NCBI GenBank assembly: GCA_003552885.1
Contig: PUPA01000043.1
Coordinates: 1 to 34,102, forward strand
Origin: Natrialbaceae archaeon
GTDB taxonomy: Archaea > Halobacteriota > Halobacteria > Halobacteriales > Natrialbaceae
Direction: 5' to 3'
DNA: 34,102 nt
Below are positions 7,343 to 13,802 of this stretch, in pieces; position 1 is the first letter of the stretch; each line of letters starts with the position of its first letter. Under the pieces are notes generated by a model. That model ran no database searches, was not told the DNA's origin, and worked only from the letters and a program-made list of their open reading frames with translations. Both the position numbers and the translations under genes were made by a program.

Positions 7343-7601
7343 GACCGCCCCGACGGCCGACGACGAGTAATAACTTTTCATACAGCAGTAATAATTGCCG
7401 CCCGTTCGGATAACTGTCGGCTATCGTTCCGGCCGCAGCAGAACCGACGAGCCCACCGGGGACCGTTCGTTCCACCGGTTCGTATCCAGACACTCGCCTG
7501 CTCCAGGTGGTGAAACGCCGGTTCGAGCGCGAGTGGCTCGTAGCTACAAGAGGCCTTTCAGCTCGAGCCGATTTTATCTGCCAACTCGACGAGCACGGCG
7601 T

Positions 7602-8927
7602 ATGGCCGCGAATCGGCGCAAGCTCCTGGCACTCTCGGGTGTCGTACTTGCCAGCCTGTCGGGTTGTCTCGCGGATCTCCCACCCGGTTCGGAGACCGGG
7701 AGTGAGAACGAACCAAACCCCGCTTCGTCTGAAAACCGAGTTGATCCGGACGTCGATGCTGATACCATCGACACGCTCGTTGCGGGGAACACCCGGTTCG
7801 CGTTCGACCTGTACGACCGGCTTCTCGAAGACGAGTCAGAGACGGATCACTTCCTTTCGCCGTTCAGCATTTCGATGGCGCTGGCGATGACGTGGGCAGG
7901 TGCTCGCGGTGATACCGAGGAGGCGATGGCTGACGCACTCAACTTCTCCCTCGACAGAGACGACCTCCACCCCGCATTTAACGCCTTGGACCTGGAACTC
8001 GACGAACGAGGCGATAGCGGGGGCAACGAAGACGACGAGGGGGGCGATCCGTTCGCACTCAACGTCGCCAACGCGTTGTGGCCACGCGAAGGGCTGGAGC
8101 TCCGTGAGGGATACGTCGACACGATGGAAGCACAGTATGGTGCCCTCCCAGTCGAGGTGGACTACAGTGATCCCGAGCTGGCCAGCGATGTGATCAACGA
8201 CTGGGTGGCTGACGAAACCGAAGCGCGGATCGATGATCTCGTTTCGGAAGGAGATCTCGACGAGAATCCACCGCTGGTGTTGACGAACGCGATCTACTTC
8301 CTCGCTGGTTGGCTCGAGGAATTTGACGAGGAGGACACCTACAACGCCGATTTCACCACGCTCGACGGATCGACAGGTGAGGTGTCCATGATGTCTCAGA
8401 CCGAGTCGTTTCCGTACGCCGCTGTCGACGGTCATCAGCTCATCGAACTTCCGTACATCGGAGCGGAGACGAGCATGGTCGTGTTCCTCCCGGCTGACGA
8501 GGAGTTCGAAACGTTTGAAACTGAGCTGGACGCCGATCGCCTCGACACGCTGCTCGCTCGACTCGACACGGAGTACGGGACGATCGAACTCCCTCGATTC
8601 GAACTCGAGACGTCGTACGGACTCTCCGAGGTGCTCGAAGATACGAGCGTGGAGGTCGCGTTCACACCCGATGCGAATTTCAGCGGAATGGTAGACGGCG
8701 GCGGGTTGTGGATTGACGATGTCCTTCACGATGCGTCTGTCTCCGTGGATGAAGAAGGAACAGAAGCGGCAGCCGCAACTGCCGTCATCATGGGAGATTC
8801 CGGGCCACCACCGGGGGAGTTTGAAATGGTCGTCGATCGCCCCTTCTTATTGCTAATCCGTGACCGACCGACCGGTGCGGTACTCTTCTTTGGCCGCGTG
8901 GTTGATACCCCCGACGATCCCAACTGA
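7602..8927 (+). CDS. Serpin (serine protease inhibitor family), predicted Tat-exported lipoprotein
   Basis: NRRKLLALSGVVLASLSGC (Tat-like RR plus LSGC lipobox). Serpin core FLSPFSISMALAMTWAGARGDTEEAM, LVLTNAIYFLAGW; hinge EEGTEAAAATAV and C-terminal VVDRPFLLLIRDRPTGAVLFFGRVVDT. Confidence 0.93.
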   Translation: MAANRRKLLALSGVVLASLSGCLADLPPGSETGSENEPNPASSENRVDPDVDADTIDTLVAGNTRFAFDLYDRLLEDESETDHFLSPFSISMALAMTWAGARGDTEEAMADALNFSLDRDDLHPAFNALDLELDERGDSGGNEDDEGGDPFALNVANALWPREGLELREGYVDTMEAQYGALPVEVDYSDPELASDVINDWVADETEARIDDLVSEGDLDENPPLVLTNAIYFLAGWLEEFDEEDTYNADFTTLDGSTGEVSMMSQTESFPYAAVDGHQLIELPYIGAETSMVVFLPADEEFETFETELDADRLDTLLARLDTEYGTIELPRFELETSYGLSEVLEDTSVEVAFTPDANFSGMVDGGGLWIDDVLHDASVSVDEEGTEAAAATAVIMGDSGPPPGEFEMVVDRPFLLLIRDRPTGAVLFFGRVVDTPDDPN

Positions 8928-11541: not shown

Positions 11542-13395
11542 ATGAGGATCCTGGTCTTCGGCGCAGGACCGCTGGGAAGCCTGAAAGCGACACGACTCCA
11601 CGAAGCGGGACACGACGTCTCTCTTCTGGCCAGAGGGCAGCGGTTGGCGGACCTGAGAGAACACGGGGTCGTCGTCCACGAGCAGGGTGCTGACAGGGTG
11701 GACGTCGCTCACGTTCCCGTAGTAGAGACGTTCGAGGCCGACGACGACTACGATCTCGTCCTGATCGTTATGGGCGAGCACCAGTTCACCGGGATTCTGG
11801 ATACGTTGGCGGAAAACGAACACGTCCAGACGGTCTGCTTCATGGGAAACGCCGTAAACGGACCCGAGGAGATGGTCCGGGTGCTCGGCAACGAGCGCGT
11901 GATGTTGGGATTCCCGTACCCCGGTGGCAAACGAGACGGACACGTCGTGTGCGTGCTCCCGATCGACGAACAGAACGAGTACACCATCCCGATCGGGGAG
12001 GCCGACGGAACGATCCGTCCCAGAACCCGAGAGGTGGCGGCAGTGCTCTCGGACATGCGAGGATACGACGTCGAGATCAGGACGGATATGGACGAGTGGC
12101 TGAAGTACCACGTCGCGCTGCTCATCTCCGGACTGGCCCCTGCGCTGTATGCCGCTGACACCGAAATGAGACGACTCGGTGAGACGAGGGACTTGCTGGT
12201 GCTCTCCGTTCGCGCGACGAAAGAAGCGTTGCGGGGATTACGTGAGGCCGGCTATTCGCCGAGCCCCCGGGTTGTGCGGGGGTTCGAGTACGTTCCGGAA
12301 CCCGTCTGCGTGTGGGCCATCGGGTGGCTGATGCGCACCGAGTACGCGAAGATCTCGATCGAGGGCCACACCCGTGCCGGTCGAGAGGAGATGACGCACC
12401 TCTTCGATGGGTTGGTGTCGATCGTCGAAGGCGGCGGTGGAACGACCGACGCGATGGATCGGCTGGCGCCGTACTTCGACCCCGACACATCACCCTACCC
12501 CGAAGGGAGACGGGACATCCCGATGAAGTGGGGTGGCGTGATCGCTCCCGCGCTCGGGGTCGGGGCGCTCGCAGTCGCCCTCCGCCGTTTGCGTTCGAAG
12601 CCCACGGCAACACCTCCAGTCGAAGGTGAGTACGGGACCGTCCAGTACGAAGTGGTCGGGCCCGAAGACGCGACTCCGGTGGTGTTCACCCACGGGTTCG
12701 CCCTCGACCGCGGGACGTGGCGGGAACAGGTCGCCACGCTGTCGGAGTCCTATCGAGTCCTCTCGTGGGACCTCCCCGGGTGTGGTGACTCCGCCGAGTC
12801 GAGCGATCCAGCGCGATTCGACGTCGCCTCCCAGAGTTTGCTCGACGTACTGGACGAGCAAGGGGTGGACCGGGCCGTTCTGGTCGGCCAGTCGATGGGG
12901 AGCCTGTTGAGCCAGTACGTCGCGTACCACCACCCCGACCGCGTTCGTGCCCTCGTTCACGTCGGTGGCTTCCCGCTGTACGGGGGGGTTTCCGACCACA
13001 CGATCAAACTGATGGGGTTGCACGTGTGGGCATTGAAGCGGATGCCCGAACGACTGCTGTGTGACCTGTTTGGTCGGTTCGTCGCTCGAAGCCCCGAGGC
13101 CCGAGCGTACGCGAGACGGGCGAGTGCACGGACCGGGAAGGAGAACATGGTGTCTCTCGAACGAGCACTCCTCGGCGACCTCGGAGACGGGATTCCCGAA
13201 CCAACCGAGCACCCACAGCTGGTCGTGGTCGGTGAAGAGGAGCACTTCTGGCTCCGGAAGAAGGCGAGAGAGTGGGACGAAACCCTCCTCGACAGCGAGT
13301 ACGAGACCGTGCCGGATGCGGGACACCTGGTGAACCACGACAATCCGACGGTCTTCAACGAAATCCTGTCTTCGTTTCTGGAATCGCTGGACTAG
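11542..13395 (+). CDS. Two-domain protein: ketopantoate reductase (ApbA/PanE)-like N-terminus fused to an alpha/beta hydrolase C-terminus
   Basis: N-terminus MRILVFGAGPLGSLKATRLHEAGHDVSLLARG (Rossmann GxGxxG) with KPR-like C-domain DEWLKYHVALLISGLAPALYA. C-terminus PVVFTHGFALDRGTWREQV...VGQSMGSLLSQYVAYHHPDRVRALVHVGG...PDAGHLVNHDNP (GxSxG and His). Confidence 0.88.
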   Translation: MRILVFGAGPLGSLKATRLHEAGHDVSLLARGQRLADLREHGVVVHEQGADRVDVAHVPVVETFEADDDYDLVLIVMGEHQFTGILDTLAENEHVQTVCFMGNAVNGPEEMVRVLGNERVMLGFPYPGGKRDGHVVCVLPIDEQNEYTIPIGEADGTIRPRTREVAAVLSDMRGYDVEIRTDMDEWLKYHVALLISGLAPALYAADTEMRRLGETRDLLVLSVRATKEALRGLREAGYSPSPRVVRGFEYVPEPVCVWAIGWLMRTEYAKISIEGHTRAGREEMTHLFDGLVSIVEGGGGTTDAMDRLAPYFDPDTSPYPEGRRDIPMKWGGVIAPALGVGALAVALRRLRSKPTATPPVEGEYGTVQYEVVGPEDATPVVFTHGFALDRGTWREQVATLSESYRVLSWDLPGCGDSAESSDPARFDVASQSLLDVLDEQGVDRAVLVGQSMGSLLSQYVAYHHPDRVRALVHVGGFPLYGGVSDHTIKLMGLHVWALKRMPERLLCDLFGRFVARSPEARAYARRASARTGKENMVSLERALLGDLGDGIPEPTEHPQLVVVGEEEHFWLRKKAREWDETLLDSEYETVPDAGHLVNHDNPTVFNEILSSFLESLD

Positions 13396-13589
13396 TCGAC
13401 AGCCGTGCGATGATCTCTCCGATCGAAAAGCCAACCAATCCTCGAAATCGCGTGGAGCCGTTCTTCCGAGCCCTCCACTCACGCGGACTGTGCCGGCCTC
13501 ACCCGAACACTCGTCGACGACGCGCTTTGAAGATACGGACGTATCCACAGGGAGCGCAGTCTCCACAGGCGCGATAGTAAATTTCGGAT

Positions 13590-13663
13590 GGGCGCTGCAG
13601 GATTTGAACCCGCGACAACTTGGTCCGAAGCCAAGCACTCTGTCCAGACTGAGCTAAGCGCCC
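13590..13663 (-). tRNA. tRNA-Arg (anticodon TCG)
   Basis: Reverse strand GGGCGCTTAGCTCAGTCTGGACAGAGTGCTTGGCTTCGGACCAAGTTGTCGCGGGTTCAAATCCTGCAGCGCCC folds as a cloverleaf; anticodon stem CTTGG/CCAAG, loop CTTCGGA; T-arm GTTCAAATC. No intron, CCA not encoded. Confidence 0.95.
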
Positions 13664-13802
13664 AGCGGCCGTCAGTTTCACTCGGCTCCGTATAAGTCGC
13701 TCGGTTCGGTGCGGTCTCGGCCGACCGTCCCGTCGACGGTTCCCGCGGTTTGGAACCCACCAGGGTCGTTATATCCGAGGTGGTCGTCCCTCGAACCGAG
13801 CC

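Follow-up and report, generated by a model that had tools for sequence, protein, structure and literature searches.

The locus examined here raises the question whether a single gene of a Natrialbaceae archaeon truly joins a reductase to a hydrolase, and what such a protein would do. For the window, that is the whole stretch of 34,102 nucleotides that was analysed, the original prediction described one uninterrupted open reading frame in which a Rossmann domain resembling ketopantoate reductase (KPR) is joined to an alpha/beta hydrolase. This was borne out: the frame runs on the forward strand from an ATG at 11542 to a stop ending at 13395 and encodes 617 amino acids, and both Pfam matches lie over their curated cut-offs (ApbA, residues 3-134, E 7e-17; Abhydrolase_1, residues 379-478, E 2.5e-24, 86.7 bits vs a cut-off of 25.8). 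The homologues share the same initial methionine, and the homologue of Natronorubrum bangense is annotated from that start. The motifs GAGPLGS, EWLKYHVALL, GQSMGS and AGHLVNH as well as a hydrophobic stretch (residues 329-352) were all found in the frame. The HMM search that had been proposed for the two halves thus returned ApbA and Abhydrolase_1, while ApbA_C gave no match in the fusion protein. Profile-profile alignment (hhalign) with canonical PanE extended over about 290 columns with a probability of 99.6-99.9 and covered both domains, so that homology to the KPR superfamily was found along the N-terminal ApbA domain (PF02558) and the helical C-terminal domain. An AlphaFold model, computed from an alignment of only 8 similar sequences, reached a mean pLDDT of 44.5, with the KPR half mostly below 50, and was set aside as unusable. 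The features are as follows.

11542-13395, + strand: KPR-like/alpha-beta hydrolase fusion gene, 617 aa plus stop (Pfam; collinear homologues)
11542-12051, + strand: KPR-like Rossmann domain, about residues 1-170, with the GAGPLG loop, Arg31 and Asn103 (Pfam ApbA; conserved columns)
11848-11850, + strand: Asn103, equivalent of PanE Asn98, 29/30 in the clade (alignment column)
12052-12477, + strand: KPR-like C-terminal helical domain, about residues 171-312 (hhalign)
12109-12111, + strand: His190, on the PanE catalytic Lys column, 30/30 (hhalign, alignments)
12388-12390, + strand: Glu283, equivalent of PanE Glu256, 30/30 (alignments)
12526-12597, + strand: hydrophobic, acid-free KPR C-tail, residues 329-352, the inter-domain segment (tail of standalone Myxococcota KPRs)
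12640-13392, + strand: alpha/beta hydrolase domain, residues 367-617 (Pfam Abhydrolase_1/6)
12892-12894, + strand: Ser451, nucleophile of GQSMG (14/14 fusions, 11/11 standalone homologues)
13240-13242, + strand: Glu567, triad acid position (Asp in one fusion and 5 standalone homologues)
13324-13326, + strand: His595, triad histidine (14/14 fusions)
13586-13664, - strand: tRNA-Arg(TCG) adjoining the fusion gene

The window's assembly is fragmented (1.7 Mb in 259 contigs, 54% complete), and an artefact therefore had to be excluded. At least 13 further haloarchaeal records contain the fusion, collinear over residues 1-617 and 73-76% identical. These include isolate genomes of Natronosalvus, Natronococcus, Natronolimnohabitans and Natronorubrum as well as MAGs placed in Natronomonas and Halococcaceae; in N. 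bangense the fusion is annotated on a complete 828-kb plasmid. A class-wide scan detected it in 8 of 394 haloarchaeal genomes, the window's own included, and none of the 394 yielded a close standalone KPR half. Median dN/dS was 0.13 for the KPR half, 0.22 for the hydrolase and 0.29 for the tail, with synonymous change dominant in both halves, and judging by these ratios both halves are under purifying selection. Together with the collinear recurrence, this selection argues that the gene is a true fusion, as had been predicted. An assembly or sequencing artefact, in favour of which the fragmented genome and a frameshift near residue 240 in one other MAG copy (L012, 4029-5443) could be cited, was rejected as a practically negligible possibility, since independent records, among them isolate genomes and the complete N. 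bangense plasmid, carry the fusion intact. Separate halves in relatives, combined with a sequencing error here, had been named as the observation that would speak for an artefact; separate halves do exist, in bacteria only, and an error is at odds with the intact fusions elsewhere.

Split forms were searched in Myxococcota whole genomes and in plasmid records of other bacteria. A Myxococcales MAG from a soda lake (L013) yielded one relative of the hydrolase half, and its genome holds relatives of each half as separate genes (44% and 40% identity). A scan of 284 Myxococcota genomes detected a tail-bearing KPR in 5 and a closely related hydrolase in 4. One order, represented by 26 genomes, contains most of these: the KPR occurs in 4 of its genomes, the hydrolase likewise in 4, and both together in 3 (hypergeometric P 0.006). 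The two genes are adjacent in one of the three Myxococcota genomes having both: in G602 they share a strand, and 19 nt separate the KPR stop (8352-8354) from the hydrolase ATG (8374); G418 and G491 have them on separate contigs. All 14 fusions grouped into a single clade in the KPR tree (100/100), and the tail-type KPRs of Myxococcota were its sister group (100/99); the hydrolase tree likewise united the fusions in one clade, with moderate support (86/96).

The components are thus separate in bacteria and fused in haloarchaea. Since the best relatives of the halves are separate, co-occurring Myxococcota genes that are adjacent in one genome, the fusion probably joined a bacterial gene pair. 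Before the fusion, the halves would have been two bacterial genes with linked functions that lay next to each other at least in some genomes, with soda-lake Myxococcota as the nearest found. As the simplest history, we infer that this pair entered haloarchaea by lateral transfer, a direction likewise deduced, was joined end to end in a single fusion and then spread among haloarchaea. The co-occurrence of the separate bacterial genes and their adjacency in G602 also support the functional link between the halves that had been proposed. Composite genes that haloarchaea assembled from bacterial parts are a known class, and the present gene is likewise a haloarchaeal fusion of parts that are separate in bacteria (Meheust et al., 2018; PMC5992828); ketopantoate is not mentioned in the main text of that paper. 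The hydrolase half alone, 57% identical, was observed in G080 (L024/L077), a genome without KPR, where it adjoins an HMG-CoA-reductase-like gene. It is frame-disrupted, with its N-terminal part in another frame, and may be a disrupted standalone gene, a fusion relic or a separate lineage. G491 carries a second KPR copy (L083, 1000-1647) in which an in-frame internal deletion removes the catalytic helix and which is a probable pseudogene.

The hydrophobic stretch had been predicted to join the halves and possibly to anchor the protein in the membrane. It is indeed present between the halves, but it did not arise as a linker when the halves were fused. Among standalone KPRs, the five from Myxococcota that are nearest to the fusion end in a hydrophobic tail resembling fusion residues 320-352, and four of these tails share a GRxxVPMxWxG motif with the fusion, e.g. 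PVGRRQVPMRWKGVVALGVGLTSASALIAWRNWKK near the C-terminus; other standalone KPR-like proteins (310-320 aa) are without the tail. Because the same tail ends the standalone Myxococcota proteins, the segment is, by this comparison, an old KPR C-terminal tail that predates the fusion, and the C-tail of the reductase would have become the inter-domain connection. Kyte-Doolittle maxima over 19 residues range from 1.3 to 2.3, residues 326-355 contain no Asp or Glu (0% D+E), and basic residues follow rather than precede the tail. As a membrane helix the tail is marginal; its hydropathy and lack of acidic residues fit either membrane contact or a buried helix. A full span would place the hydrolase on the other side of the membrane and leave the tail's basic residues outside, against the usual topology rule for such residues, and for this reason peripheral or in-plane membrane contact is favoured. 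In the working model, the tail would keep the protein in contact with the membrane or with a lipid-like substrate.

The catalytic set of E. coli PanE comprises Lys176, the proton donor, together with Asn98 and Glu256 (PMC3478992; PMC10127515). Two MAFFT modes were used to align 30 sequences of the KPR-like clade with 17 PanE-type sequences, taken from haloarchaea that carry the fusion and from others. At the position of the catalytic lysine of PanE, all 17 PanE-type sequences had Lys and all 30 clade proteins had His190. The original prediction took the lysine of EWLKYHVALL for the retained catalytic residue, which was not borne out: this residue, K188, falls on the Trp column of PanE and is replaced by Val, Thr, Arg, Ile or Trp in 8 of the 30 sequences, among them a full-length fusion (L075) and the four closest standalone KPRs. 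The Asn expected four residues after the lysine had been read as Ala; in the MAFFT register its position corresponds to Leu194 and not to Ala192. Arg31 (30/30), Asn103 (29/30) and Glu283 (30/30) lie on the invariant Arg, Asn and Glu columns of PanE and were taken as equivalents of PanE Arg31, Asn98 and Glu256; Arg31 of PanE binds the NADPH phosphate.

In a second alignment of 15 sequences, His190, Asn103, Glu283 and Arg31 were among only 23 invariant columns, and the hhalign profile-profile register agreed in placing His190 on the Lys column. A low-scoring pairwise HMMER alignment with 3ghy, containing a 2-residue gap, paired K188 with Lys instead. No gap precedes the helix in the stretch on which the Lys-to-His register depends, and this register, though well supported, falls short of proof. 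Read as the catalytic Lys, K188 is probably shifted by two residues, and the Glu-Asn-Lys set has probably become Glu283-Asn103-His190, with His190 as the proposed proton donor. Even in the 3ghy register His190 would be a better candidate than K188 for an essential residue, because it is conserved and Lys188 is not, whichever register is used. A distant KPR-like protein on a viral contig also shows a WLKSH motif; no relative of the whole fusion was found among viral contigs.

In the hydrolase half, the intact-looking nucleophile elbow and histidine that had been noted were confirmed, as every fusion has Ser451 and His595. Glu567 occupies the acid position in 13 of the 14 fusions, and the remaining one has Asp, the usual acid member of the alpha/beta hydrolase triad; standalone homologues have Glu or Asp (five with Asp). 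The nearest curated models include 3-oxoadipate enol-lactonases, all far below their cut-offs (TIGR02427, PcaD: 83.1 bits vs 255.85). The C-terminal half is thus a predicted serine hydrolase of the esterase/enol-lactonase type with the putative triad Ser451-His595-Glu567. Like PcaD enzymes, it aligns over nearly the full length and has the HG oxyanion motif, GxSxG and a C-terminal His; it differs in its score and in the Glu at the acid position, and no protocatechuate-pathway genes were seen adjoining the fusion.

All 12 fusion-bearing genomes tested encode a separate canonical PanE-type protein that scores over the TIGR00745 cut-off (141.35 bits), whereas the fusions reach only 66-82 bits and the window's protein 72-74. 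The separate PanE-type protein and the low score of the fusion argue against a role in pantothenate synthesis and support the prediction that the substrate is probably not ketopantoate. The explanation we prefer, with a confidence slightly above even, is a genuine bifunctional enzyme, in which a KPR-type carbonyl reductase with a Glu-Asn-His set and a serine hydrolase, acquired laterally as a pair and fused once, share a hydrophobic substrate. The N-terminal half is probably an NADPH-dependent carbonyl reductase of the KPR superfamily, an activity and a cofactor deduced from sequence. In the likeliest working model, the two sites would work one after the other on a single hydrophobic acyl or keto compound; for example, the hydrolase could open an ester or lactone and the reductase could reduce the keto group. 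We have moderate confidence in the two activities and low confidence in the substrate class. No metabolic gene consistently adjoins the fusion in the haloarchaeal neighbourhoods. In bacteria, the KPR gene of G491 lies 12 nt upstream of an acyl-CoA synthetase gene and the hydrolase gene of G481 adjoins a cytochrome P450 gene, neighbours that point weakly to hydrophobic acyl compounds.

Tentatively, with a confidence somewhat short of even, the KPR half may represent a widespread class of uncharacterised reductases in haloarchaea, Myxococcota, Actinomycetota and Bacillota that have the Glu-Asn-His set and a substrate unlike those of known KPRs; the fused hydrolase would be its pathway partner, and the fusion would record a pathway of two steps whose genes are still separate in bacteria. 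Standalone KPR-like genes of Streptomyces, Embleya and Paenibacillus ('2-dehydropantoate 2-reductase N-terminal domain-containing protein') retain the Glu and His columns and, in all but one, the Asn, but are without the hydrophobic tail and without a fused or adjacent hydrolase. They are divergent from a TetR-type regulator gene.

The missing canonical lysine and a score far below the PanE cut-off could also mean that only the hydrolase is catalytic, with the KPR half kept as an NADPH-binding sensor or scaffold. We consider this unlikely, given that the KPR half is the more conserved one (dN/dS 0.13 vs 0.22), that the Asn, Glu and His columns, not all of which a pure sensor needs, are kept across bacteria and archaea, and that WLKSH recurs in the distant viral-contig homologue. 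It is decidedly unlikely that the reductase half acts on C=N bonds (imine or iminium) rather than C=O while the hydrolase releases or removes an acyl group of the same molecule. In beta-hydroxyacid dehydrogenases, which are related enzymes, exchange of the catalytic Lys lowers keto-acid and raises imine reduction, and imine reductases use non-Lys donors with nonpolar flanks, one of them with a His near the donor position (PMC7540600); the fusion has Lys replaced by His and the K+4 Asn by Leu. The argument is analogy only, however, as the published exchanges are to Asp or Phe and not to His, and no conserved amine-related gene lies nearby. A variant of the pantoate pathway, with the hydrolase acting on ketopantoyl lactone as a ring-opening enzyme and the KPR half acting as ketopantoate reductase, could draw on the KPR homology, the enol-lactonase models and the varied 2-oxoacid aldol adducts reduced by E. 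coli KPR (PMC10127515), but is very improbable with both the catalytic Lys and the K+4 Asn replaced and the fusion detected in only 8 of 394 haloarchaeal genomes, and was rejected as the main role because every fusion genome tested has its own PanE-type gene.

Returning to the bifunctional enzyme, the KPR half shares with PanE/ApbA (TIGR00745, PF02558) the GxGxxG Rossmann motif, Arg31, the Asn98 and Glu256 equivalents and the homology of the C-terminal helical domain. It differs in having His in the Lys column and Leu at the K+4 Asn, in scoring about half the curated cut-off without an ApbA_C match, and in its extra hydrophobic C-tail and fused hydrolase. Among PDB entries, the KPR half matched canonical KPRs only, with a low score, and the hydrolase half generic hydrolases only. 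No description of a KPR-hydrolase fusion was found in the literature searched, which covered few subscription journals. By this search the domain combination is new, and the reductase half is a probable catalytic variant of the KPR superfamily. The fusion ties two generically annotated enzymes to one function and offers a testable entry into a family named after ketopantoate reductase. If confirmed, the Lys-to-His exchange would add a catalytic variant to a superfamily that has been studied well and would caution against transferring the PanE name. The gene is also a clear added case of haloarchaeal lateral transfer followed by gene fusion, for which the unfused bacterial pair has been identified.

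The setting of the fusion varies: it lies beside a tRNA-Arg(TCG) gene in the window, N. bangense carries it on a plasmid, and other genomes have it in still other places. In G085 (L075) the same tRNA gene (13006-13080, - strand) lies 3' of the fusion, further away than in the window, and in both cases it is followed by a UbiA-family gene and its neighbour; the tRNA gene is a possible integration site. A serpin gene (7395-8927, + strand; Pfam E 4.7e-101) lies about 2.6 kb upstream of the window's fusion and has no match near the other fusions. A serpin was also seen about 600 bp upstream of the standalone hydrolase homologue on contig C164 of G491 (Myxococcota; L082, 499-1887), and the shared proximity is perhaps a coincidence. 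Genes for CPBP (CAAX-type, PF02517) intramembrane proteases were absent near the window's fusion and numbered 2-5 within about 9 kb of the fusion in 5 of 11 genomes (L066, L072, L073, L075 and L076, also L008 and L012). This amounts to 16 genes vs 0.5 expected (P about 5e-5 under the assumption of independent loci, which does not entirely hold). A downstream trio of genes recurs as well (L041, 12070-13402; equivalents in L066, L067, L069 and L074) and encodes a 61-aa protein with a single transmembrane segment, a YgaP-like transmembrane protein and a 299-aa protein that has no Pfam match and, with its GISLGG, resembles another alpha/beta hydrolase.
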